Of a DNA stretch of 35,600 nucleotides, positions 2,990 through 20,785 are shown in pieces. The number at the start of each line of letters is the position of its first letter. Position 1 is the stretch's first letter. Under the pieces are notes generated by a model. The model was not told where the DNA came from. It searched no databases and worked only from the letters and a program-made list of their open reading frames with translations. The translations under genes and the position numbers were made by a program. Location of the stretch: assembly GCA_029553375.1 (NCBI GenBank), contig JAKPCH010000037.1, positions 1 through 35,600 on the forward strand, written 5' to 3'. Source of the DNA: Deltaproteobacteria bacterium. GTDB taxonomy: Bacteria > Desulfobacterota > Syntrophia > Syntrophales > UBA8958.

Positions 2990-5593
2990 TCAGGCACCGA
3001 GGCCGGCGGCGCACAAGACCCTCCGTGTCACCACGTCCGACAGGAGCCGCAGGCCGTCGGCGGCCGTGTCGTAGACGCCCACCACGCCCTCGTACTGGAC
3101 GTCCCGGGGTGAGAGGTCCTTGAGGAGGTTGGGGTGCCTCTTCAGCCAGGAGGCGTTGAAGACGACCCCCTCCCGTTCGGGATAGACGGCGAGGTAGAAG
3201 ATGTCCATCTCCACCAGGTCCTGGAAGAAGTGGGACCCGAAGGACAGATCGGGGATGAGGCTCCCGTCGCGGTAGGCGATCTCACCGATGACGGCCACCC
3301 GGCTGATCTCGGCGAAGGTGACGGGCACGCCCATGGCGGGGGTGGTGGTCCCCCAGCGACCGGGCCCCAGCAGGAGGGTAGGCTGGGCCTCCCGACCAGC
3401 GATCATTCGGTTGAGGCGGCCGATGACGCGGGCCACGTCGTATTTCTCCGAGAGGGTCAGGGAGGCGTAACCCCGGGGGTCGACATAGATCACCCGGGAG
3501 ATGGGCAAGGAAACGCTCCCCCCCATGAAGTTCCCCTCCTGACTGAGGAGGAGATCCTCCCCGGGGACCCGGGCGGGGACGGCGACCTGGGCCGTCTTGC
3601 CCTTCGTCTGGAAGGGGCGGCACTGGAGGAGGTTGATCTGAAGACAACCGTCGCTGTTGAAGTTGCCCGTGAACTCGATATCCACCGGGTAGTCGTAAAC
3701 CGCCTCGAGGGCCTTGAGCATGGCCGACATGGCGCGGGGGAAATCGGTGCGCGAGAGAAACTCGTCGAAGGTGAGGATCCAGTGGTTATCACCGTCCCGA
3801 CCGCGGGCCCTCATCCGTTCCCGGGCCTCCAGGTCGGGGACGGCGAAGAGCTCCAGGTTCGCCGCCGCCCCCTCGGCGGCGAGCTGCCCCAGGGGAAGGG
3901 ACTGGAAGCGGTTTTCCCCCAGGTCCAGGCAATCCACCTCGTGCTGGGAGTAGCGCCGGGCATCCTCGAGGCCGGAATGGGGTTTCACGAGGGGGGCGTC
4001 GAGGGCGACGATGCGGGGGTAGTCGTTCTCCACGCGGTTCACCGCCCTGGTGCCGAGACCGTAAACGAGGCGGAGCATGCCCGCCCTGGGGTCCAACTCC
4101 GGGTTCCAGACGAAGGTATTGTAGGAGAGACCGACGCCGGCGATGTCGGGGAAGAAGTAGCGCCCCCGATAGGAACCGGAGACGCGCTGGACCAGGAGGG
4201 CCATCTGTTCGTCCTGCCGGTCGAGGCCCCGCTCGAGGCGGTAGGTCAGGGCGTCCTCGTTCATGGTGCTCGCGAAGACCCGGCGGACGTAATCGGCGAA
4301 GACCTCGTAGCGCTCCTGGGGTGACCCCTGGTTGGCGCAGAAGAAACTCGCGTACTTCCCGGCGAAGGCGTTGCCGAAGGCGTCCTCGAGGAGGCTGCTG
4401 GAGCGGACGATGATGGGGGACTGGCCGAAGTACTCCAGCATGAGGAGAAACTGTTCCTTGATCTCTTCGGGAAAGGTGCCGACGAGCATCTTCTCCCTCA
4501 GTTCCGCCGCGGCCTCGAAATACCCGTCCCGGGTCTTGTGGGTCATCAGGAGGCGCCACCACCCGTTCTCCACGATATAGGCGTAAAAGACATCGGAGCC
4601 TATGTAGTATGAGTCGTGATGCTCGAGCTTCCCGGCCCAGTCCCACGACTTGTCCTGTCGCAGGATGTTGCGGGCCAGGAGCATGCCCACGGACTTGCCC
4701 CCGATGAACCCCGTCCCGATGAGGCGGTCCTTGATCTCCAGGAGGTCCTCAAGGTTGAAGTAGTCCCGCGCCAGGGCCAGCATCCTCTTTTCCCGGCCGA
4801 TGAGGATGCGGGAGAGGGTATCCACCATCTCTTTCTTCCGGGCCTCCCCCTCGGGGGAGTCGTCAGGGAGGAGATCCCTTGCCTCCAGGAAGATGCGGTC
4901 CCAGTAGTCCAGGTGACGCTCGGCGTTGACGGTGCTCTTGTGGGCCAAAAAGGAGAAGAGGTTCGTGGCGTCCACGCTGCTCAGGACGGGGGAACTGTCG
5001 TCCCCCTCCAGGATGTGGGGGAGGAACATGGTGGGGGAGTAGCGGTTCCAGACCTTCAAGGGGTGGACGCAGATTCGGCCCTGGTAGTTGTAGATGTCCA
5101 GAAGGACCTGGGTCGTCTCCCGGATCCGGGCCACCGTCTTGAAGGAGTGACGTCCCCGCAGGAGGGCGAAATAGGCGACGGTGTTGAGCTCGAAGAGATA
5201 GGGGCAGGTGATGACGAAGAAATTACCGATCATCAGGTCCGTGGCCCAGGCCAGGAGGAGGTCGGAGAGGGAGTCGAAGACGTAAAAGACATCCCGTCCC
5301 TCCTGACGGACGATGTTGTGGACCTGGGTGGAGAAGGACTCGAAACCCCTCTCGGCGTTGAGGCGGTAGGTCACGACGCCCCCCTCCCCCGCCAGGAGGG
5401 GGGGGTGGTGGGCGAAACGCATATAGACGACCCGCCGCCCCTTGGCGAGGGCGGCGCGGACGAAGGGCCCCACGAAGAAACGGTAATCCTCCATGTCGTC
5501 CACCTGCAGGACGACGTTGTCGCCCGTCTGCAGGGAACCGATGATCTTGTCCAATCCCTTGAGACCGGAAGTGACGGGTGAGTAAACGAGCAT
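2990..5593 (-). CDS. PEP/pyruvate-binding (PPDK_N) protein with KaiC/RadA-like N-terminal domain
   Basis: An 867-residue protein. Residues 1 to about 215 resemble the RecA-fold of KaiC/RadA proteins (SGLKGLDKIIGSLQTGDNVV at 9-28; a Walker B-like VFYVFDSLSDLLL at 102-114), but the P-loop position reads VDDMEDYRF and has no GKT/S, so ATP binding there is doubtful. From about 285 the sequence is the ATP-grasp/PEP-pyruvate-binding domain of pyruvate phosphate dikinase and PEP synthase, with GGKSVG at 298-303 and the conserved IVRSSSLLEDAFGNAFAGKY at 395-414. The swivelling phosphohistidine domain and the TIM-barrel PEP domain of true dikinases are missing, so it is unlikely to be a complete PEP synthase. 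ATG at 5593 has GGGAGG upstream. It is divergent from the sigma-54 activator. A phosphotransfer or regulatory role is possible but unproven. Confidence 0.75.
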   Translation of the reverse strand: MLVYSPVTSGLKGLDKIIGSLQTGDNVVLQVDDMEDYRFFVGPFVRAALAKGRRVVYMRFAHHPPLLAGEGGVVTYRLNAERGFESFSTQVHNIVRQEGRDVFYVFDSLSDLLLAWATDLMIGNFFVITCPYLFELNTVAYFALLRGRHSFKTVARIRETTQVLLDIYNYQGRICVHPLKVWNRYSPTMFLPHILEGDDSSPVLSSVDATNLFSFLAHKSTVNAERHLDYWDRIFLEARDLLPDDSPEGEARKKEMVDTLSRILIGREKRMLALARDYFNLEDLLEIKDRLIGTGFIGGKSVGMLLARNILRQDKSWDWAGKLEHHDSYYIGSDVFYAYIVENGWWRLLMTHKTRDGYFEAAAELREKMLVGTFPEEIKEQFLLMLEYFGQSPIIVRSSSLLEDAFGNAFAGKYASFFCANQGSPQERYEVFADYVRRVFASTMNEDALTYRLERGLDRQDEQMALLVQRVSGSYRGRYFFPDIAGVGLSYNTFVWNPELDPRAGMLRLVYGLGTRAVNRVENDYPRIVALDAPLVKPHSGLEDARRYSQHEVDCLDLGENRFQSLPLGQLAAEGAAANLELFAVPDLEARERMRARGRDGDNHWILTFDEFLSRTDFPRAMSAMLKALEAVYDYPVDIEFTGNFNSDGCLQINLLQCRPFQTKGKTAQVAVPARVPGEDLLLSQEGNFMGGSVSLPISRVIYVDPRGYASLTLSEKYDVARVIGRLNRMIAGREAQPTLLLGPGRWGTTTPAMGVPVTFAEISRVAVIGEIAYRDGSLIPDLSFGSHFFQDLVEMDIFYLAVYPEREGVVFNASWLKRHPNLLKDLSPRDVQYEGVVGVYDTAADGLRLLSDVVTRRVLCAAGLGA

Positions 5594-5643
5594 CGACCTG
5601 CCTCCCTGACGGATAATCTTCCTCGTTCCTTACAACATTTATA

Positions 5644-5653
5644 CCAACGTTGG
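5644..5653. promoter_or_regulatory. Palindrome CCAACGTTGG, possible operator
   Basis: A perfect ten-base palindrome in the 231-base divergent region between the PEP-binding gene and the activator gene. On the minus strand it lies just downstream of the inferred promoter of the PEP-binding gene, where a repressor would block early elongation. The bound protein is unknown. Confidence 0.35.
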
Positions 5654-5663
5654 GAAGTCAACG

Positions 5664-5692
5664 ATGGTACATTTTTGGCTTCTTGGTAACAA
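5664..5692 (-). promoter_or_regulatory. Possible sigma-70 promoter of the PEP-binding gene
   Basis: On the minus strand TTGTTA (5692-5687) and TACCAT (5669-5664) are separated by 17 bases, each matching four of six consensus bases. A second -10-like TATAAAT lies further downstream on this strand (5644-5638) but has no -35 at a proper distance. Confidence 0.3.
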
Positions 5693-5694
5693 AG

Positions 5695-5717
5695 ATACGT
5701 TTTTGTAGAAATACGTT
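5695..5717. promoter_or_regulatory. Direct repeats ATACGTT overlapping the activator promoter
   Basis: ATACGTT occurs at 5695-5701 and again at 5711-5717, 16 bases apart start to start. The second copy overlaps the -35 hexamer of the activator gene's promoter, the position expected for a repressor or a -35-contacting activator. It could also be chance. Confidence 0.3.
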
Positions 5718-5744
5718 GACGGGACGGCGAGATCCGTCTATAGG
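5716..5744 (+). promoter_or_regulatory. Sigma-70-type promoter of the sigma-54 activator gene
   Basis: TTGACG (5716-5721, five of six consensus bases) and TATAGG (5739-5744, four of six) are separated by exactly 17 bases. Transcription would begin near 5751, giving about 75 bases of leader before the ATG at 5825. An ATG at 5753 would be almost leaderless from this promoter. Confidence 0.55.
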
Positions 5745-5824
5745 GGGATCCGATGGCATCGACACGGCGGGCCCTGCCCCATCGCTATCGCTTGAGCGCG
5801 GGGCCCCGGCGGCGCGGGTGGTTC

Positions 5825-7357
5825 ATGAGCGTTCATACCTACGAAGAACTGGCGGCCCTCCACGCCATCGCCAAGATCCTCGCCCAGCCCTGGGAGCTGA
5901 GGGACCAGCTCGAGGGCGTCCTGGGAGAGATGAGCCGGCGCCTGGGGATGCAGCGGGGGATGATCGCCCTCCTGGACCGGGACAGCGGTGAGGCCTGGCT
6001 GGAGGTGGCCCACGGGGTCAACATCGACGGCCGTGAGATCACCTACCGGCCGGGGGAGGGCATCACGGGGAAGGTGGCCCAGACGGGTCGCCCCGTCGCC
6101 ATCCCCAACCTCGGGAAAGAGGAGTTCTTCCTCGACCGCACGGGGGCGCGCCGCGCCTTGAACCGCGATGAACTTTCCTTCCTCTGCGTCCCCATCACCT
6201 ACGAGGACCGGGTGGTGGGGATCCTCTCCGCCGACAAATGGCACAAAAATGTAAAGAGCCTCGACGGAGAACTCCTCATCATGTCCGCCGTGGCGGAACT
6301 CATCGCCAAGGCGGTCCACATCCTCGCCCTGGAGGAAGAGAACCGGCGCCTGAGGCACCTCGTGAACCAGGGGAAGTCCCCCTCAGCGAGCATCATCGGC
6401 CATTCCAAGGCCATGCAGGAGGTCTTCGGCCTCATCCGCCACGTGGCCGACTCGGGCACGACGGTCCTCATCGTCGGGGAGACGGGGACGGGCAAGGAGC
6501 TCGTCGCCCGGGCGATCCACGAGAACAGCCCCCGTCGTAAGGGGCCCCTGATCCAGGTGAACTGCGCCGCCCTCCCCGACACCCTCATCGAGAGCGAGCT
6601 CTTCGGCTTCGAGAAGGGGGCCTTCACGGGGGCCGTCCAAAGGCACCGGGGCCGTTTCGAGGAGGCCCACGGGGGTACCATCTTCCTCGACGAGGTGTCG
6701 GAGCTCTCCGCCGCCGCCCAAGCCAAGCTCCTGCGGGTCCTCCAGGAGAGGCAGTTCCAACCCCTGGGCTCCTCCCGCCTCGTCAAGACGGACGTGCGGG
6801 TCATCGGGGCGACGAACCGCCCCCTCGAAGAGGCCATCGCCGCCGGCCGCTTCCGCAGCGACCTCTACTACCGCCTGAGCGTCTTTCCCATCTACCTCCC
6901 CCCCCTGCGGGAACGGGGTAACGACATCATCCTCCTGGCGGATCACTTCCTTCTCAAGTATGCGAAGGAACTGGGAAAACCGGTGAAAAAGATCTCTCCG
7001 GCCGTCATCGAGGCCTTTCTCTCCCACCCCTGGCCGGGCAACGTCAGGGAGCTGGAAAACTGCATGGAGCGGGCCGTCCTGCTGGCGGACAGCGACACGG
7101 TGGAAACGAGCCACCTCCCCCCCTCCCTCCAGACGCGGGGCCGCGAGGAGGAGGGCAAGGAGGGGGGCCTCTTGAGCACCGTCGTCAAGGCCCAGGAACG
7201 CTCCCTCATCATCGACGCCCTCCGGGAGGCCCGGGGCAACCAGAGCGAGGCGGCCCGCATCCTGGGCACGACCAAGAGGATCATCCAGTACAGGATCAAG
7301 AAGATGGGCATCGACGCCGCCGCCTTCAAGGCCCCGAAAGACCGCCACCCCGCCTGA
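5825..7357 (+). CDS. Sigma-54-dependent transcriptional activator, NifA-like (GAF, AAA+, Fis-type HTH)
   Basis: A 510-residue enhancer-binding protein. Residues about 5-170 form a GAF sensor domain ([20 protein letters not shown] near 76-95, typical of NifA/FhlA-like sensors). The AAA+ domain follows, with Walker A GETGTGKE at 218-225, the sigma-54-contacting GAFTGA at 265-270 and Walker B GGTIFLDE at 283-290. A Fis-type helix-turn-helix ([22 protein letters not shown]) ends the protein. It should use ATP to remodel sigma-54 RNA polymerase. I choose the ATG at 5825 because it begins directly before the GAF domain and lies behind a good promoter; an in-frame ATG at 5753 adds 24 Arg-rich residues and has AGGGGG upstream, so it cannot be excluded. 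The NifA-type interdomain cysteine pair is not seen. The next gene downstream carries a sigma-54 promoter, making nitrogen control its likely job. Confidence 0.88.
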
Positions 7358-7373
7358 CGCTTACACCCACATT

Positions 7374-7404
7374 TTTGTTCCGTTGTCACAGGCAAAAGAA
7401 CAAA
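7374..7404. promoter_or_regulatory. Dyad TTTGTTC/GAACAAA, candidate activator-binding site
   Basis: TTTGTTC (7374-7380) and its exact reverse complement GAACAAA (7398-7404) are separated by 17 bases, with a second small palindrome ACAAATTTGT at 7400-7409. The dyad lies roughly 140-170 bases upstream of the -24 element, the usual place for an enhancer of a sigma-54 promoter. It does not match the NifA consensus TGT-N10-ACA or the NtrC consensus. Confidence 0.4.
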
Positions 7405-7449
7405 TTTGTGCCTCCTCTGGACACGACCGTGACGGACCACACCCCGAAA

Positions 7450-7470
7450 AAGACCAGTCCCCGGGGTCTT
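7450..7470. terminator. Possible terminator hairpin after the activator gene
   Basis: AAGACC (7450-7455) pairs with GGTCTT (7465-7470) around a nine-base loop, preceded by an A-run and followed by CCTTAG rather than a clean T-run. It lies 93 bases after the activator's stop codon. Weak as an intrinsic terminator; it may be incidental. Confidence 0.3.
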
Positions 7471-7539
7471 CCTTAGTCAGGACGGGCCTTGCGCCCACCT
7501 TTCCGAGGGGCGGGAGGCAACTGGGACAAACCTGTACCT

Positions 7540-7557
7540 TTGGCATCCTCTTCGCAT
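7540..7557 (+). promoter_or_regulatory. Sigma-54 (-24/-12) promoter of the glutamine operon
   Basis: TTGGCATCCTCTTCGCAT has the invariant GG (7542-7543) and GC (7554-7555) exactly ten bases apart, with TGGCA at -24 and TCGCA in place of TTGCA at -12. Transcription would begin near 7566, about 47 bases before the first start codon. The gene immediately upstream encodes a sigma-54 activator, which supports the call. Confidence 0.65.
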
Positions 7558-7569
7558 TACCCCTTTGGC

Positions 7570-7587
7570 CACCGTGTCGGCACGGTG
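7570..7587 (+). other. Stem-loop in the leader of the glutamine operon
   Basis: CACCGTG (7570-7576) and CACGGTG (7581-7587) form a perfect seven-base-pair stem capped by TCGG. It sits between the sigma-54 start site and the Shine-Dalgarno AAGGAGG (7602-7608), so it would be at the very 5' end of the transcript, where it could stabilise the mRNA or serve as a protein-binding site. Confidence 0.45.
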
Positions 7588-7612
7588 CCGAAAACTCCCG
7601 CAAGGAGGTCCT

Positions 7613-8728
7613 ATGTGTCGTCTTTTTGCCGTCACGAGCCGGGAGCCCCTCTCCCCCATGGTGGCCGTGCGCGCCCTCGACGTGATGAAGGAGGGTCATG
7701 ACGGTTCGGGGATGGGTCTTTTCCTGACGGACCTGGGGGGACCGTTCGAGCGTTTCCGGGGGGCCCCCATCCTCTCGGGGATCTTCTCCCACGAGGGGAT
7801 CCGCACCCTGGACCGCTACATGATGGAGCTCGACTTCATGGTCAAGTACAAGTTCTCCCTCCGGCCCACCAAGAGGCCGCCGGAGGGCACCCCCAAACGG
7901 GACAACTACCTGATCCGGGTCTACGACTACCCGCCGGAGTGGCTCTCCCTCTCGAAGGAGGAGATCGAGCACCGCCTCATGGTGACCCGCCTGGAGCTGC
8001 GCCGCATGGGGGAGAAGGACGACTCCATGATCGTCTTCAGCTTCTGGCCGGACGTCATCATGATCAAGGAGGTGGGGGACCCCATGGAGCTGGCCGAATA
8101 CCTCGGCCTGGACAACGAGGAGCTCCAGGCCCGGGTCATCCTTGCCCAGGGACGACAGAACACCAACTACGACATCGACATCTACGCCTGCCACCCCTTC
8201 TTTATCCAGGGCTACGCCACCATGACGAACGGTGAGAACACGGCCTTCGTCCCCATCCGCGAATACCTCACCTCCCGGGGCTTCGCGGGTTACATGGGTT
8301 ACCATTCCGACTCCGAGGTCTTCACCCACATCCTCCACTTCGCCCACCGTCACCTCGGCCTCGGCATCGAGATGTACAAACACATCCTGACCCCCCTCAA
8401 AGACGAGGAACTCGAGCGGCACCCCGACGGGAGGCGTCTGAGGGCCGTCAAACAGGCCTGCCGCCCCCTCATCATCGACGGCCCCAACTGCGTCATCGGC
8501 TGCCTCCCCGACCACACCCTCTTCATGGTCCAGGACAGCAAGAAACTCCGTCCCGGCGTCGTGGGGGGGGCGCCGGGGATGTTCGCCTTCTCGTCGGAGA
8601 TGTGCGGTCTCGACGCGGCCATCCCCGTCCGCAACAAGAGCGAGGACTTTCAACCCATGAAATACGACACCGTCATGGTCCCACCGGAACGCCAGGAGGT
8701 GATGAGATGGAATCAGTGGGAAAGATGA
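7613..8728 (+). CDS. Glutamate synthase, glutamine amidotransferase subunit (class II GATase)
   Basis: A 371-residue stand-alone glutaminase domain of glutamate synthase. It begins MCRLFAVTS; removal of Met exposes Cys2, the N-terminal nucleophile of class II amidotransferases. GHDGSGMG (28-35) follows as in this family. It releases ammonia from glutamine for transfer to 2-oxoglutarate on the FMN subunit encoded next. In classic bacterial GltB this domain is fused to the synthase core; here it is separate, as in archaeal-type glutamate synthases. The start is fixed by AAGGAGG at 7602-7608 and by the requirement for Cys at position 2. It is the first gene behind the sigma-54 promoter, and its 3' end overlaps the next gene by 22 bases. 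Confidence 0.9.
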   Translation: MCRLFAVTSREPLSPMVAVRALDVMKEGHDGSGMGLFLTDLGGPFERFRGAPILSGIFSHEGIRTLDRYMMELDFMVKYKFSLRPTKRPPEGTPKRDNYLIRVYDYPPEWLSLSKEEIEHRLMVTRLELRRMGEKDDSMIVFSFWPDVIMIKEVGDPMELAEYLGLDNEELQARVILAQGRQNTNYDIDIYACHPFFIQGYATMTNGENTAFVPIREYLTSRGFAGYMGYHSDSEVFTHILHFAHRHLGLGIEMYKHILTPLKDEELERHPDGRRLRAVKQACRPLIIDGPNCVIGCLPDHTLFMVQDSKKLRPGVVGGAPGMFAFSSEMCGLDAAIPVRNKSEDFQPMKYDTVMVPPERQEVMRWNQWER

Positions 8729-10341
8729 CCCCCTCCTCCCTGAGCGCCAGCGACCTCCCCTGGCGGGTCTTATGGGATAAGGAGCGATGCACCCTCTGCG
8801 GGCGGTGCACCGCCGTCTGCCCCGTCCAGGCCATCGAGCTGGGGGTGCACCGTCAGCGCCTCTTCCAGGCCCCTCTGGGGCTGACGCAGAGACCTACAAA
8901 CATCGTAAAAGTTTATCACGGCATCGACCAGAAGACCGACCCCGCCCACGCCTGCGTCGGTTGCGCCATGTGCGATTACGTATGCCCCAACGGGGCCATC
9001 CACCCCGTCCGCAGCGACCAGGTCGACAAGCTCCGCTTCCACGTCAACCAGAACGGGGAACCCCGCCGCCGCGGCGGCCGCCGCAACGACCCCCGGAGTA
9101 TCCTCGACGAGATCAAGTTCATCCGCATTTCCATGCTCACCGACCCGGCCCTCGACGCGGGGCGCCATGACTTCGAACTCCGCACCCTCCTGGGGAGGGT
9201 CCTGCCCGCCGAGGAGATGGTGAAGTCCATGCGGGACAACGGCTGGATACCCCCCGTGAGGGAGATCTATCCCCTCGTCATCGGGAGCATGTCCTTCGGT
9301 GCCCTGTCACCCACCATGTGGGAGGGGATCCAGATGGGGGTGGCCTACCTCAACGAGGAGCTGGGGATGCCCGTCCGGGTCTGCACCGGCGAGGGGGGTT
9401 GCCCGCCCCGCCTCCTCAGGTCCCGCTTCCTGAAGTACGTCATCCTCCAGATAGCGAGCGGCTATTTCGGCTGGGACGAGATCATCCACGCCCTCCCGGA
9501 GATGAAGGAGGACCCCTGCGCCGTGGAGATCAAGTACGGCCAGGGCGCCAAGCCGGGCGACGGGGGGCTCCTCATGTGGTACAAGGTCAACCGCCTCATC
9601 GCCGCCATCCGCGGCGTGCCTCCGGGGGTCAGCCTCCCCAGCCCCCCCACCCACCAGACCAAGTACTCCATCGAGGAGTCGGTGGCGAAGATGATCCAGT
9701 CCATGGCCATGGCCTGGGGCTTCCGGGTGCCCGTCTATCCCAAGATCTCCGCCACGAGCACCACCCTGGCGGTCCTCAACAACCTGGCCCGCAACCCCTA
9801 CGCCGCGGCCCTGGCCGTCGACGGCGAGGACGGGGGGACGGGGGCGGCCTACAACGTCTCCATGAACCACATGGGCCACCCCATCGCCAGCAACATCCGG
9901 GACGCCTACCTGAACCTCGTCAAGATCGGGAAACAGAACGAGATCCCCCTCTTCGCCGGCGGCGGGGTGGGGAAGAACGGCAACCTCGCCGCCAACGCCG
10001 CGGCCCTTATCATGCTCGGGGCCAGCGGGATCCAGATCGGCAAGTACGTCATGCAGGCCGCCGCGGGCTGCCTGGGGGGCGAGAACGACCGCTGCAACAT
10101 CTGCAACATCGGCCTCTGCCCCAAGGGTATCACCTCCCAGGACCCCCGTCTCTACCGCCGCCTCGACCCCGAGGCGGTGGCGGAGCGCCTAGTCGACGTC
10201 TACCGGTCCTTCGACACGGAACTGAAGAAGATCCTGGCGCCCCTGGGAAGATCGACCTCCCTCCCCATCGGCATGTCCGACGCCCTGGGGATCAGCGACG
10301 GTGCGGCGGCGGCCCGCCTCCAGATCCGCCACGTCATTTAG
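8707..10341 (+). CDS. Glutamate synthase, FMN-binding core subunit with N-terminal ferredoxin domain
   Basis: A 544-residue subunit. The N-terminus carries two [4Fe-4S] motifs, CTLCGRCTAVCP (Cys28, 31, 34, 38) and CVGCAMCDYVCP (Cys83, 86, 89, 93). The remainder is the glutamate synthase FMN/2-oxoglutarate domain, with GEDGGTGAA near 371-379 and a late cysteine cluster CNICNIGLCPKGI near 463-475 that fits an iron-sulfur site of this family. It would reduce 2-iminoglutarate to glutamate using electrons delivered through its ferredoxin domain. ATG at 8707 is preceded by CAGGAGGTGA; an ATG at 8725 overlapping the previous stop is less likely. The subunit lacks both the amidotransferase and the GXGXG domains, which are encoded by the flanking genes. 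Confidence 0.9.
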   Translation: MESVGKMTPSSLSASDLPWRVLWDKERCTLCGRCTAVCPVQAIELGVHRQRLFQAPLGLTQRPTNIVKVYHGIDQKTDPAHACVGCAMCDYVCPNGAIHPVRSDQVDKLRFHVNQNGEPRRRGGRRNDPRSILDEIKFIRISMLTDPALDAGRHDFELRTLLGRVLPAEEMVKSMRDNGWIPPVREIYPLVIGSMSFGALSPTMWEGIQMGVAYLNEELGMPVRVCTGEGGCPPRLLRSRFLKYVILQIASGYFGWDEIIHALPEMKEDPCAVEIKYGQGAKPGDGGLLMWYKVNRLIAAIRGVPPGVSLPSPPTHQTKYSIEESVAKMIQSMAMAWGFRVPVYPKISATSTTLAVLNNLARNPYAAALAVDGEDGGTGAAYNVSMNHMGHPIASNIRDAYLNLVKIGKQNEIPLFAGGGVGKNGNLAANAAALIMLGASGIQIGKYVMQAAAGCLGGENDRCNICNIGLCPKGITSQDPRLYRRLDPEAVAERLVDVYRSFDTELKKILAPLGRSTSLPIGMSDALGISDGAAAARLQIRHVI

Positions 10342-10351
10342 GAGGCCAATT

Positions 10352-12685
10352 ATGCTGTACCGACCGACCATCATCATCTCCGGCATGAAAGACGGCCGCC
10401 GCGTCTCCTCCCGGGAGCTGGAGGCGGCCCTCCAGGAAGCCGTGGCGGCTGGCCACCGCTGCATCGAGGTCCATGCCTACGGCCAGCACGGTATCGGCGG
10501 CCGCCTCTGGAAGGCGGGGGAAGAGGAGGTCCTCATCAGGGTCCTGGGCTCTTCCGGTCAGCGGGTGGGGTCCATGGCCTTCCCCAACACCACCATCGAC
10601 GTCTTCGGGCCCGCCTCGGACGACGTGGGATGGCTGAACGCCGGGGCGACGATCATCGTCCGGGGACACGCCACCAACGGCGTGGCCAACGCCATGGCCC
10701 AGGGGAAGATCTACGTCGCCGGCGACATCGGGGCCCGGGGGATGACCATGACGAAACACAACCCCCGTTTCGCCCCCCCCGAGCTCTGGGTCCTGGGGAG
10801 CGTGGGTGATTCCTTCGCCGAGTTCATGGCGGGGGGGACGGCCGTTATCTGCGGCCACGAGACCCCCCGCCGGGAAAACATCCTGGGCTACCGGCCCTGC
10901 GTGGGGATGGTGGGGGGGAAGATCTTCTTCCGCGGCCCCCTCTCCGGCTACAGTGAAGACGACGCGCGGCTCGTTCCCCTCGACGGCGAGGACTGGCTGT
11001 GGCTGAGGGAAAACATGGCCCTTTTTCTGAAGACCATCGGCCGGATGGAGCTCTACCCCGTCCTCACCGCCGACCCCACGGCCTGGCGGATCCTCGCGGC
11101 CCGCAAACCCTTCGAGAAGACGGGCAGGAGGGGCCGGGGCATGGCCGCGTTCCGGACGGAGGTCTGGGAGAAGGAGCTCGGCCGGGGCGGATTGATCGGC
11201 GACCTGACGGACATCCCCCGGGGGGTCATCGATGTCCTCCCCACGGGCGACCTCCGCCGTTTCGTCCCTTCCTGGGAGAACGGGAAGCACCTCGCCCCCT
11301 GCCAGGCGGCCTGTCCCACGGGGATGCCCGTCCGCACCCGTTGGCGCCTCATCCGTGAGGGCAAGACCAAAGAGGCCCTGGAGCTGGCCCTGAACTACAC
11401 CCCCTTCCCCGCCACGGTCTGCGGCCATCTCTGCCCCAACCTCTGTCTCTCCCAGTGCACCCGGCAGGCCGCCCAGCTGCCCCCCCTCGACATGGCCGCC
11501 CTGGGGCGGGCCGCCCTGGAGGCCGAAGCGCCCTCCCCCGCCCCTCCTTCGGGCCGAACCGTGGCCGTCATCGGCGCCGGGCCGGCGGGACTTTCCGTGG
11601 CCTGGCAGCTATGGCTCCGGGGTCACGAGCCCGTCCTCTACGAGGCGAGGGAAGAATTGGGGGGCAAGATCACCGCCGCCATCCCGAGGAGCCGCATCCC
11701 CGACGCGGTCGTGGACCAGGAACTCCGGCGTGTCCGGGAGAGGATCCGCCGCGTCGTCACGGGCCGGGCCATGACGAGGGAAGACTTCCGGCGCCTCGAG
11801 GGGGAACACGACGTCGTCGTCATCGCCGTGGGGGCCCGGAAGGGCAGGAAGATCCCCGTGCCGGGCCACGAGCGGGCCGTGACGGCCATGGAATTCCTCA
11901 CGGCGAGCAAAGCGAAAGAGGCCTCCGTGGGCAAGAGGGTGGTGATCATCGGCGCCGGCAACGTCGGCTGTGACGCCGCCGCCGAGGCGGCCCGCCTCGG
12001 GGCGGAGGAGATAACCCTCATCGACATCCAGGAGCCGGCATCCTTCGGCGCGGAGAGACGCCACGCCGAGGCCGTCGGGGCCCGCTTCCTGTGGCCGCGG
12101 GTCACCAAGGCCGTCACGGAGGAGGGAGTGGTCCTGGCCGACGGCGAGGTCATCGCCGCCGACACGGTGATCATGGCCGTGGGCGATGCCCCGGAGATCG
12201 ATTTCCTCCCCGAAGACATCGAGAAGAAGGGGGGATTCCTCGTCGTCGACGAGAACTTCCGGACCTCGAACCCCCGGGTCTTCGCCATCGGCGACGCCGT
12301 GCGCCTCGGGCTCCTCACGGAGGCCATCGGCGCGGGGAGGATCGCCGCCCGGGCCATCGACGATCTCCTGAGGGGAAGGAACGATACCTACGACAACCTT
12401 CCCCCGGTGGACAAGGGTCGGATACGTCTGGCCTACTACGATCCCTATGTCTCGACGTCGGGCGACCTTACGGCCTGCGCCGGCCAATGCGCCTCCTGCG
12501 GCGAGTGCCGTGACTGCGGCCTCTGCGAGACCCTCTGTCCCCAGAGGGCCATCTCCCGCCTCGACGTCCCCGAGGGTGGATACGCCTATGTGGTCGATGA
12601 GGAGAAGTGCATCGGTTGCGGTTTCTGTGCCGCCGCCTGCCCCTGCGGGATCTGGGAGATGAGGGAGAACACGCCGCTGGAATAA
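10352..12685 (+). CDS. Fusion: glutamate synthase GXGXG domain + GltD-like FAD/NAD(P) oxidoreductase + ferredoxin tail
   Basis: A 777-residue fusion. Residues 1 to about 230 are the GXGXG beta-helix domain normally at the C-terminus of GltB. From about 310 the protein is a glutamate synthase small subunit: cysteines 317, 321, 357, 361, 365 and 369 mark its N-terminal iron-sulfur region, VIGAGPAG (406-413) binds FAD and GAGNVG (near 534-539) binds NAD(P)H. A C-terminal tail has two cysteine-rich [4Fe-4S] motifs, near 709-730 and 753-764 (CIGCGFCAAACP). It would pass electrons from NAD(P)H, or from a ferredoxin, to the FMN core subunit. ATG at 10352 follows TAGGAGG; the gap to the preceding gene is 10 bases. 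The fusion itself is clear from one uninterrupted frame; electron donor and direction are inference. Confidence 0.88.
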   Translation: MLYRPTIIISGMKDGRRVSSRELEAALQEAVAAGHRCIEVHAYGQHGIGGRLWKAGEEEVLIRVLGSSGQRVGSMAFPNTTIDVFGPASDDVGWLNAGATIIVRGHATNGVANAMAQGKIYVAGDIGARGMTMTKHNPRFAPPELWVLGSVGDSFAEFMAGGTAVICGHETPRRENILGYRPCVGMVGGKIFFRGPLSGYSEDDARLVPLDGEDWLWLRENMALFLKTIGRMELYPVLTADPTAWRILAARKPFEKTGRRGRGMAAFRTEVWEKELGRGGLIGDLTDIPRGVIDVLPTGDLRRFVPSWENGKHLAPCQAACPTGMPVRTRWRLIREGKTKEALELALNYTPFPATVCGHLCPNLCLSQCTRQAAQLPPLDMAALGRAALEAEAPSPAPPSGRTVAVIGAGPAGLSVAWQLWLRGHEPVLYEAREELGGKITAAIPRSRIPDAVVDQELRRVRERIRRVVTGRAMTREDFRRLEGEHDVVVIAVGARKGRKIPVPGHERAVTAMEFLTASKAKEASVGKRVVIIGAGNVGCDAAAEAARLGAEEITLIDIQEPASFGAERRHAEAVGARFLWPRVTKAVTEEGVVLADGEVIAADTVIMAVGDAPEIDFLPEDIEKKGGFLVVDENFRTSNPRVFAIGDAVRLGLLTEAIGAGRIAARAIDDLLRGRNDTYDNLPPVDKGRIRLAYYDPYVSTSGDLTACAGQCASCGECRDCGLCETLCPQRAISRLDVPEGGYAYVVDEEKCIGCGFCAAACPCGIWEMRENTPLE

Positions 12686-12716: not shown

Positions 12717-12760
12717 AAACGATGGGAGAGGACATTATTCAACAAGTCATGGGAGGATAC

Positions 12761-14935
12761 ATGAAGAAGAAGGAAAAGATCGTCGCGGCGGAGCGCGAAT
12801 ACCGGGTCGGACGGGACAAGACGGTGCCCGTCTCCGATTATTACGGCGAGGACACCTTCAACCTCAAGGTCATGAGGGTGAAACTGCCGAAAGAGACCTA
12901 TAACAAGATCCTGGATGCCGTCCACGACAACGCCGTCCTCGATCTCGAAACGGCCGACATCGTGGCCCAGACCATGAAGGAATGGGCCATCGCCAAGGGG
13001 GCGACCCACTTCGCCCACTGGTTCCAGCCCATGACGGGTTCGACGGCGGAGAAACACGACGCCTTCATCGATCCCGTAAGACCCGGTGAGGTCATCGAAC
13101 GCTTCTCGGGGAAACAGCTCGTCCAGGGCGAACCGGACGCCTCGAGTTTCCCCAGCGGCGGCATAAGGGCCACCTTCGAGGCCCGGGGTTACACGGCCTG
13201 GGACATCTCCTCCCCCGCCTTCATCAGGAGAAACGGCATCGCCACGACCCTCTGCATCCCCTCCGCCTTCATCTCCTACAACGGCGAGGCCCTGGACAAG
13301 AAAACGCCCCTCTTGAGATCCAACAAGGCCGTGAGCGAGGCGGCGGTGAGGATCCTGAATCTCCTGGGAAACCGGGAGGTCAAGGGGGTCTATTCCACCC
13401 TCGGCCCCGAACAGGAGTACTTCCTTATCGACAAGGACTACTACTACAAACGTCAGGACCTCGTCCTCTGCGGGCGGGCCCTCGTGGGGGCGCCCCCCGC
13501 CAAGGGACAGGAACTGGAGGACCAGTACTTCGGCAGCATCAAGGAGAGGATCTCTTCCTATATGCACGACGTGGAGGAGGAGCTCTTCAAGCTGGGGATC
13601 CCCGCCAAGACCCGGCACAACGAGGTGGCCCCGAGCCAGTACGAGCTCGCCCCCGTCTTTGAGGAGGCCAACCTCGCCGTCGATCACAACCAGATCGTCA
13701 TGGACACCCTCAAGGCCGTGGCCCGGCGCCACCACCTGGCCTGCCTCCTCCATGAAAAGCCCTTCGCCGGGATCAACGGCTCGGGCAAGCACCTCAACTG
13801 GTCCCTCTCGGACAATCGGGGTAACAACCTCCTCAACCCCGGCACCACCCCCCAGGGCAACATCCAGTTCCTCGTCTTCCTCATCGCCACCGTCCGGGCC
13901 GTCATGAGACACGCCGACATCCTGAGGGCCTCCGTGGCCTCCTACGGGAACGACCACCGCCTCGGGGCCAACGAGGCGCCTCCCGCCATCATCTCCGTTT
14001 TCCTCGGGGAGCACCTCACCCGGATCCTCGAGGACATCGAGAGGGGCCGCGTGACGAAGGCCACGGACCACTCCATCATCGACCTCGGCGTCTCCACCCT
14101 CCCCATCCTCAGCAAGGACAACACGGACCGCAACCGGACGTCCCCCTTCGCCTTCACGGGTAACAAGTTCGAATTCCGCGCCGTTGGTTCCTCCCAGTCC
14201 ATCTCCTTCCCGGCGACGGTCATCAACACCATCGTTGCCGAGAGCCTCGATGACCTCGCCGGCAAGATCAAGGCCTCCCTGAAGGGCAAAGGGGTCAACC
14301 AGGCCGTCTTGGACGTCTTGAAGAAGGAGATCCGGGAGATCAAGCCTATCCTCTTCAACGGCGACAACTACAGCCCCGCCTGGGAGAAGGAGGCGACGAG
14401 ACGGGGCCTCCCCAACGCCAAGACGACGCCGGAGGCCCTCCCCGCCCTGGTGACGGAAAAGGCCCTCGCCCTCTTCGAGAGGTACCGCGTCCTGTCCCCA
14501 GTGGAGCTAAAGTCGCGCTACACCATCTACCTCGAACGCTACATCAAGGACCTGGAGATCGAGGCCAAGTGTCTCCACAACCTCTGCATGGAACACGTCA
14601 TCCCCGCCGCCACGGCCTACCAGGCGACCCTCGCCACGGCCCTGACCAGGACGCGGGAGGCCCTGGGCAAGGGGGTGGATCTCCGTGTCCAGGAGACGCT
14701 CCTCAGGGACATCGTGGAGCTCGTCGGCAGGATCTACCACAAGGATCGCGACATCATGGACGCCCTGAAGAAGGCGGAGGGCCACGGGGACGAGCAAGAG
14801 CGGGCCGGGACCCTCTACCGGGAGGAGAAACTCCGGATGAACGAACTGAGGGACTGCGTGGACGCCCTGGAATCCCTCGTGGACGACGAGGTCTGGCCCC
14901 TGCCCGCCTTCTGGGAGATGTTGTTTATCAACTGA
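12761..14935 (+). CDS. glnN: Glutamine synthetase type III
   Basis: A 724-residue type III glutamine synthetase; the length is typical of GlnN and far above type I (about 470). Recognisable segments include THFAHWFQPMTGSTAEKHDAF near 98, GPEQEYFLID (metal-binding Glu), KTRHNEVAPSQYELAP, HEKPFAGINGSGKHLNWSL and the ATP/glutamate-site region NRTSPFAFTGNKFEFRAVGS. It condenses glutamate and ammonia with ATP hydrolysis in the cytoplasm. ATG at 12761 is chosen because GGGAGG lies four bases upstream; in-frame ATGs at 12722 and 12749 have poorer ribosome sites. No type I-like adenylylation loop is expected in this family. It is placed between glutamate synthase and carbamoyl phosphate synthase genes, giving a complete GS/GOGAT cycle. 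Confidence 0.95.
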   Translation: MKKKEKIVAAEREYRVGRDKTVPVSDYYGEDTFNLKVMRVKLPKETYNKILDAVHDNAVLDLETADIVAQTMKEWAIAKGATHFAHWFQPMTGSTAEKHDAFIDPVRPGEVIERFSGKQLVQGEPDASSFPSGGIRATFEARGYTAWDISSPAFIRRNGIATTLCIPSAFISYNGEALDKKTPLLRSNKAVSEAAVRILNLLGNREVKGVYSTLGPEQEYFLIDKDYYYKRQDLVLCGRALVGAPPAKGQELEDQYFGSIKERISSYMHDVEEELFKLGIPAKTRHNEVAPSQYELAPVFEEANLAVDHNQIVMDTLKAVARRHHLACLLHEKPFAGINGSGKHLNWSLSDNRGNNLLNPGTTPQGNIQFLVFLIATVRAVMRHADILRASVASYGNDHRLGANEAPPAIISVFLGEHLTRILEDIERGRVTKATDHSIIDLGVSTLPILSKDNTDRNRTSPFAFTGNKFEFRAVGSSQSISFPATVINTIVAESLDDLAGKIKASLKGKGVNQAVLDVLKKEIREIKPILFNGDNYSPAWEKEATRRGLPNAKTTPEALPALVTEKALALFERYRVLSPVELKSRYTIYLERYIKDLEIEAKCLHNLCMEHVIPAATAYQATLATALTRTREALGKGVDLRVQETLLRDIVELVGRIYHKDRDIMDALKKAEGHGDEQERAGTLYREEKLRMNELRDCVDALESLVDDEVWPLPAFWEMLFIN

Positions 14936-14998: not shown

Positions 14999-16159
14999 TT
15001 GCCGATCCTGAAGAGAAAAAGGACCGCCTTGGTCGTCCTCGAAGACGGGAGTGTCTTCCAGGGCCACGCCTTCGCCGGGGGAGGCGAGGCCCTGGGGGAG
15101 GTCGTCTTCAACACGGCCATGAGCGGCTACCAGGAGGTCCTGACGGATCCCTCCTACAAGGGGCAGATCGTCACCATGACCTACCCCATGATGGGCAACT
15201 ACGGCATCAACGAGGATGACATGGAGTCCCTCGGGATCCACCTGGAAGGCTTCCTCTGCCGTGAATATCACCCGACCCCCAGCAATTGGCGCTCGAGGCG
15301 GACCCTGGGGTCCTTCCTCGAGGATCACGGCAAGATCGGTGTGGAGGGCCTCGACACCCGGGCCCTGACGCGGCGCATCCGCACCGCCGGCGCCATGAGG
15401 GGCATCGTCTCCACGGATGTCCTCGACGTTGCGGTCCTCCTTTCCAAGGTCCGGGCCTACCCCGGTCTCGTCGGGAGAGACCTGGTCCGGGAGGTCACCT
15501 GCCGCGCCCCCTACCGCTGGCGGGGCGACCGTCCCTCGCATATCGCCGAGGCGCAGGAAAACGGGGGCCGCCCGCGGGCGGCCGTTTTGGATTGCGGGGT
15601 GAAATTCAACATCTTGAGGATGCTCGAGGCGCGGGGCTGCTCCGTCTTCGTCTTCCCCGCCGCGGCGGGGAGGGAAGAGATCCTCTCCTGCCGTCCCGAC
15701 GGCCTGCTCCTCTCCAACGGACCCGGCGATCCCGCCGCCCTGACCCATATCGCGGCGACGGTCCGTTCACTCCTGGGAGAACTCCCCATCTTCGGCATCT
15801 GCCTGGGGCACCAGCTCCTGGGCATGGCCGTGGGGGGAAGGACGGCGAAGCTGAAATTCGGTCACCACGGCGTCAACCAGCCCGTCAAGAACCTCCTGTC
15901 GGGACGCGTCGAGATCTCTTCCCAGAACCACGGCTTTGTCGTGGAGGCCGCCTCCGTCGAGGGGGGGAGGGCCACCCACCTCAACCTCAACGACGGCACC
16001 TCCGAGGGCTTCTTTTACCCCGATCTCAAGGCCTTCAGCGTCCAGTACCACCCCGAGGCGGCGCCGGGCCCCCATGACGCCGCCTATCTCTTCGACCTCT
16101 TCGTCGCCCTCATGAGGAACGAGGCCTCCCTCGACGGGTGGGTAAAAGGCGGGGGCTGA
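14999..16159 (+). CDS. carA: Carbamoyl phosphate synthase small (glutaminase) subunit
   Basis: A 386-residue CarA. The N-terminal domain begins [15 protein letters not shown] as usual; the class I amidotransferase domain has GICLGHQ with Cys268 as nucleophile and the His351/Glu353 pair in QYHPEA. It hydrolyses glutamine and channels ammonia to CarB. The start is TTG at 14999: an in-frame TAA at 14993-14995 leaves no other upstream start, and the next Met would delete the conserved N-terminus. GGGGGTG lies upstream as a weak ribosome site. It is one base away from carB. Placement after glnN links glutamine production directly to its use. Confidence 0.95.
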
Positions 16160-16160
16160 G

Positions 16161-20785
<4,625 letters not shown>

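Follow-up and report, generated by a model that had tools for sequence, protein, structure and literature searches.

We found that the gap upstream of a glutamate synthase operon in this Syntrophales genome holds a regulatory switch, at which a NifA/AnfA-like activator would very likely bind twin palindromes and drive an ammonium-assimilation regulon from a sigma-54 promoter. Binding is assigned by association, most likely to the activator encoded directly upstream. The intergenic switch is real, conserved and functionally coherent, and was partly foreseen in a first-pass annotation of the window (the whole 35,600-nt stretch of DNA analysed). The gap between the activator stop (7357) and the first glutamate synthase ATG (7613) spans 255 bases and contains both the -24/-12 element and the dyad of that annotation, among the following features:

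7367..7380, unstranded: distal predicted activator site UAS1, CCACATTTTTGTTC, core ACATTTTTGT at 7369-7378 (motif scan and conservation)
7374..7404, unstranded: dyad of the first-pass annotation, TTTGTTC-N17-GAACAAA, formed by the inward-facing halves of UAS1 and UAS2 (complementarity across the sites not kept in relatives)
7398..7411, unstranded: proximal predicted activator site UAS2, GAACAAATTTGTGC, core ACAAATTTGT at 7400-7409 (motif scan and conservation)
7541..7556, + strand: sigma-54 promoter (-24/-12), TGGCATCCTCTTCGCA (pattern scan; element in 41 of 42 activator-adjacent loci)
7564..7593, + strand: stable hairpin where the operon mRNA is predicted to begin (fold z -2.3; inverted repeat I2)

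The -24/-12 element had been described as having exact GG-N10-GC spacing and lying 58 bases before the first glutamate synthase start codon, and the letters bear this out: GG occupies 7542-7543 and GC 7554-7555, separated by N10, with the GC ending 58 bases 5' of the ATG at 7613. The pattern TGGCAYNNNNNTNGCW matched only here in the 35.6 kb, against 0.08 matches expected by chance. The GG-N10-GC at 7541-7556 stands in a TGGCAC-N5-TTGC context that is one base off TTGC, and its -12 half (TCGC) counts against the best explanation. The genome encodes rpoN, and no sigma-70 promoter was found at 5500-7700. Based on the position of the element, the transcript start is predicted at about 7566-7568. 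The 7560-7612 region folds at approximately -21 kcal/mol (z -2.3), forming a hairpin just 5' of the ribosome-binding site. The genes downstream were:

7613..8728, + strand: glutamate synthase glutaminase-type subunit (starts MCRLF; no Pfam or NCBIfam match)
8602..10341 (ORF as listed), + strand: glutamate synthase FMN-domain subunit with ferredoxin domain (Glu_synthase, Fer4)
10301..12685, + strand: fusion of GXGXG and NAD(P)H-dependent small subunit of glutamate synthase (GXGXG, Pyr_redox_2)
12722..14935, + strand: type III glutamine synthetase (GSIII_N)
14999..20785, + strand: carA, carB and a class II amidotransferase/phosphoribosyltransferase-type gene (Pfam)

The glutaminase-type identity of the first product was deduced from its Cys2 start and its neighbours, and the true start of the FMN-domain subunit is probably further 3' than 8602. 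The carA, carB and amidotransferase-type genes, on the same strand, are a probable continuation of the glutamate synthase operon.

Upstream of the gap, two features concern the activator:

5669..5706, unstranded: two degenerate site copies before the activator gene, ACATTTTTGG at 5669 and ACGTTTTTGT at 5697, 28 bp apart
5825..7357, + strand: activator gene, encoding a NifA/AnfA-like one-component enhancer-binding protein (Pfam GAF, Sigma54_activat, HTH_8)

Pfam domains and the motif itself confirmed the earlier description of this gene as encoding a GAF-AAA+-Fis activator with an intact GAFTGA loop, and the combination of an AAA+ domain carrying GAFTGA with a C-terminal, Fis-type HTH is that of bacterial enhancer-binding proteins. 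The reading frame is open from 5753, but alignments with orthologs set in only at residue 25, which makes the ATG at 5825 the most likely start. A GAF domain in place of a receiver and a score below the TIGR01818 cut-off set the protein apart from NtrC. Its best PDB match was 9qq6, a full-length structure annotated as a Nif-specific regulatory protein, and its best NCBIfam match was the NifA model (TIGR01817). The latter match, together with the AnfA/VnfA-like AC-N6-GT sites in the gap, would suit a true NifA or AnfA/VnfA for nitrogenase genes that stands at this locus incidentally. We consider that very unlikely: the TIGR01817 score (486.5 bits) is below the cut-off (528.85), the protein falls in a supported clade (100/99) apart from the NifA branch of the tree, and the nifH model had no match above cut-off in the genome. 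The NifA site TGT-N10-ACA had no match in the window either, and the earlier statement that the upstream site is of neither NifA nor NtrC type was upheld. Moreover, with only one Cys in residues 1-185, the protein does not have the conserved Cys set of AnfA/VnfA.

The degenerate copies at 5669-5706 suggest possible autoregulation of the activator gene. Among relatives, an exact site preceded the activator gene itself at 19 of 41 loci (0.5 in shuffles). The divergently transcribed gene (2990-5593, - strand) encodes a PPDK_N domain of the phosphoenolpyruvate/pyruvate dikinase type, and in several other genomes, too, a relative of this gene lies next to the activator.

We assessed whether the operator was the long dyad originally noted or a pair of shorter units. 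The dyad is letter-perfect (TTTGTTC at 7374-7380, N17, GAACAAA at 7398-7404) and is the sole match in the window, even when three mismatches are allowed. However, the corresponding gaps of relatives repeatedly show a shorter palindrome, ACA-W4-TGT, usually twice and with starts 29 or 31 bp apart (31 bp between UAS1 and UAS2). Both sites share the consensus GWACA-WWWW-TGTTC (AC-N6-GT with flanks), and the inner halves of neighbouring sites therefore resemble one long dyad. Across 27 pairs from relatives, a mean of only 0.31 of the inner flank bases were complementary between the sites, which indicates that the long dyad is a by-product of two tandem palindromes. The N17 dyad was thus rejected as a single operator unit, exact as its letters are, in favour of the recurring ACA-W4-TGT units and their 29- or 31-bp spacing. 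The dyad could also be read at the RNA level, as a hairpin in the activator mRNA or a transcription terminator, given that the 7374-7404 stretch folds as RNA in the window (z -3.6). That reading is extremely improbable, as cross-site complementarity is near chance level in relatives whereas each palindrome and the spacing are kept, no T-run follows the dyad, and the same pairs stand before amtB, GSIII and gdhA.

The twin palindromes and the promoter were conserved together with the activator, the outcome foreseen by the scan of relatives that the first-pass annotation had proposed. Named relatives in the scan were Syntrophus, Smithella, other Syntrophales, Syntrophobacteraceae and Desulfobacterales, and the comparison covered 42 loci with the activator directly upstream and 30 loci where the same gene family stands without it. 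At activator-adjacent loci, the sigma-54 element was present in 41 of 42 (0.28 in dinucleotide shuffles), at least one exact ACA-W4-TGT palindrome in 38 of 42 (0.38 in dinucleotide shuffles), and two palindromes spaced by precisely 29 or 31 bp in 27 of 42 (0 in shuffles). The strict pair was absent from the other 15, some of which keep one exact site. Without an upstream activator, the sigma-54 element occurred at only 3 of 30 loci (Fisher p 2e-15 against 41 of 42, a value that overstates independence because the species are related, although the loci nonetheless span many genera). The distance from pair to promoter was mostly 86-152 bp across loci and 151.5 bp in the window, and the earlier reading of the dyad as an enhancer site was supported.

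Sites of this kind are rare in the window's genome. A loosened pair (ACA-N4-TGT-N18..22-ACA-N4-TGT) occurred once in 2.4 Mb, at 7369-7409, and the single core ACA-W4-TGT occurred eight times, versus two for a reversed control. Two of the eight are UAS1 and UAS2, one precedes amtB-glnK-glnA, one lies in the activator ORF (6243), three are inside other ORFs, and one is in a hairpin after an ntrC-like gene. The site before amtB, which is followed in order by amtB, a PII gene (glnK) and glnA, is accompanied by a -24/-12-like GG-N10-GC element (CGGCACCTTCCTTGCT) and, at a distance of exactly 31 bp on its upstream side, by a half-site. The activator therefore probably also controls amtB-glnK-glnA in this genome, a prediction from site placement. 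Among 60 relatives, extra pairs were found before amtB (about ten loci), before glnA next to the activator (L072), and before GSIII (L082, L083), gdhA (L085) and a glutamate synthase gene (L091), most of them accompanied by a sigma-54 element; the reversed control pattern had no match in these relatives. Hence, of the proposal that a dedicated nitrogen regulator acts here, the dedicated activator was upheld, but its confinement to the glutamate synthase operon was not, given the third site before amtB-glnK-glnA. No protein of the genome scored above the ntrC model (TIGR01818) cut-off, and the absence of ntrC and nifH above cut-offs fits a takeover of the NtrC role by this activator.

A different regulator might bind the palindromes, with the neighbouring activator only sharing the locus. 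About a dozen other sigma-54 activators are encoded in the window's genome, and some Desulfobacterales that lack the activator next door still have the palindromes ahead of their glutamate synthase genes. We nevertheless regard this as unlikely, because the site accompanies the activator to other positions (next to glnA in genome G035, between glnA and amtB at locus L219), sites also precede activator genes, and genomes without an adjacent activator gene still encode a homolog elsewhere. In the Desulfobacterales concerned, these homologs are 48-50% identical, and one palindrome precedes each of their genes; wherever the scan resolved the loop, it showed GAFTGA or GSFTGA. Three of the Desulfobacterales loci that keep the 31-bp pair without an adjacent activator also have a sigma-54-like element (L153, L170, L175). 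At four others (L168, L171, L174, L177), the 31-bp pair abuts the GltB1 start codon and leaves no room for a sigma-54 promoter. This counts against the proposed mechanism and suggests that the pair works differently in some members of the order.

In family f6 (L062 3148-3363 and L061, in genomes G033 and G047), the activator gene and the glutamate synthase operon are separated by a short ORF for a stand-alone HTH protein of Fis type. This protein resembles the activator's own C-terminus, and no sigma-54 element was found at the two f6 loci. An HTH-only partner protein was rejected for the window's locus, such an ORF being confined to family f6.

Taken together, we propose that the GAF-AAA+-Fis protein would bind the two palindromes (GWACA-WWWW-TGTTC) as dimers. 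As the sites are three DNA turns apart, the two dimers would sit on the same face of the DNA and may help to form the active AAA+ ring. Looping over approximately 150 bp would then allow the ring to open the sigma-54 polymerase complex at 7541-7556, and the opened promoter would drive the glutamate synthase, GSIII and carbamoyl-phosphate synthase operon. The same activator would very probably drive amtB-glnK-glnA in the window's genome, and may drive its own gene in some relatives. The inducing signal is presumably nitrogen shortage, perhaps sensed through the GAF domain (e.g., 2-oxoglutarate) or PII, a guess from NifA biology.

The operator and activator vary a known scheme and are not a new kind of system. 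AnfA binds TAC-N6-GTA and VnfA GT(T/A)C-N6-GTAC, normally with two dyads per promoter. In R. capsulatus, a 266-bp gap separating the activator gene from its sigma-54 target holds sites of this type, and VnfA uses two motifs of similar spacing (PMC7294313, PMC9542535). The window likewise has two AC-N6-GT dyads at the promoter (CAC-ATTTTT-GTT and AAC-AAATTT-GTG, 31 bp apart), placed in the 255-bp gap between activator and target. However, its sites have W for the strict T/A outer bases and an AT-rich centre, the pair keeps a fixed 29- or 31-bp spacing, and the activator lacks the conserved cysteines; the targets of AnfA/VnfA are nitrogenase genes, whereas no nifH-type gene scored above cut-off here. 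With NifA, the activator shares the GAF-AAA+-Fis architecture, but it differs in its sub-cut-off score, its separate clade, and the lack of both TGT-N10-ACA in the window and a nitrogenase (nifH) match above cut-off. With NtrC, which has this task in most bacteria that have been studied well, it would share sigma-54 activation of glnA, glnK-amtB and glutamate synthase, but it has no receiver domain and a different site, in a genome without an NtrC above the model cut-off. A survey of sigma-54 regulation reported a limited presence of NtrB/NtrC in Thermodesulfobacteriota (PMC12316311).

A similar target set has been predicted for DVU1949 of Desulfovibrio vulgaris, likewise a GAFTGA-bearing one-component activator of sigma-54 promoters (Kazakov et al. 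2015, PMC4641369). Nine operons under the label of nitrogen metabolism and transport were assigned to it by prediction, together with its own gene, and in Desulfovibrionales its gene lies with DVU1952 and iorAB, with no conserved sigma-54 promoter nearby (PMC4641369). By contrast, the window's activator directly precedes the glutamate synthase operon. Its candidate sites stand before glt and amtB-glnK-glnA. The locus tags of the DVU1949 targets are presumably amt/PII, glutamine synthetase and glutamate synthase genes; on that basis these sites, and the pairs of relatives before amtB, glnA, GSIII and gdhA, match DVU1949-type targets. Presumed Desulfovibrio-like genomes encode 42-46% homologs of the activator, two of them beside amtB with TCTACATTTTTGTRYA. 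Two such genomes (G232, G142) also carry a more distant GAF-AAA+-Fis homolog (43%), at loci L221 and L224, where a palindrome pair spaced 30 bp adjoins a urea/amide-type periplasmic binding protein gene; here an operator of the same type may serve another nitrogen source. The earlier suggestion of a possibly undescribed regulator was weakened by the precedent of AnfA and VnfA for a paired AC-N6-GT operator and by the similar targets predicted for DVU1949. In literature on nitrogen regulation in Syntrophus or Geobacter, we found no description of this regulator.

Control of ammonium uptake without a canonical NtrC in Syntrophales and related anaerobes was not described in the literature searched. 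We tentatively suggest, as a scenario somewhat short of even likelihood, that a one-component activator from the NifA/AnfA lineage, acting at twin sites of AnfA type, took over from NtrBC the role of master regulator in ammonium assimilation across Syntrophales, and probably in more of the Desulfobacterota, and that in some Desulfobacterales the 31-bp pair moved onto the glutamate synthase start, where it may act independently of sigma-54 (e.g., as a repressor site). The short, countable operator with its fixed spacing makes the regulon testable across dozens of genomes, and ties the housekeeping assimilation of nitrogen to an operator geometry known from alternative-nitrogenase activators.
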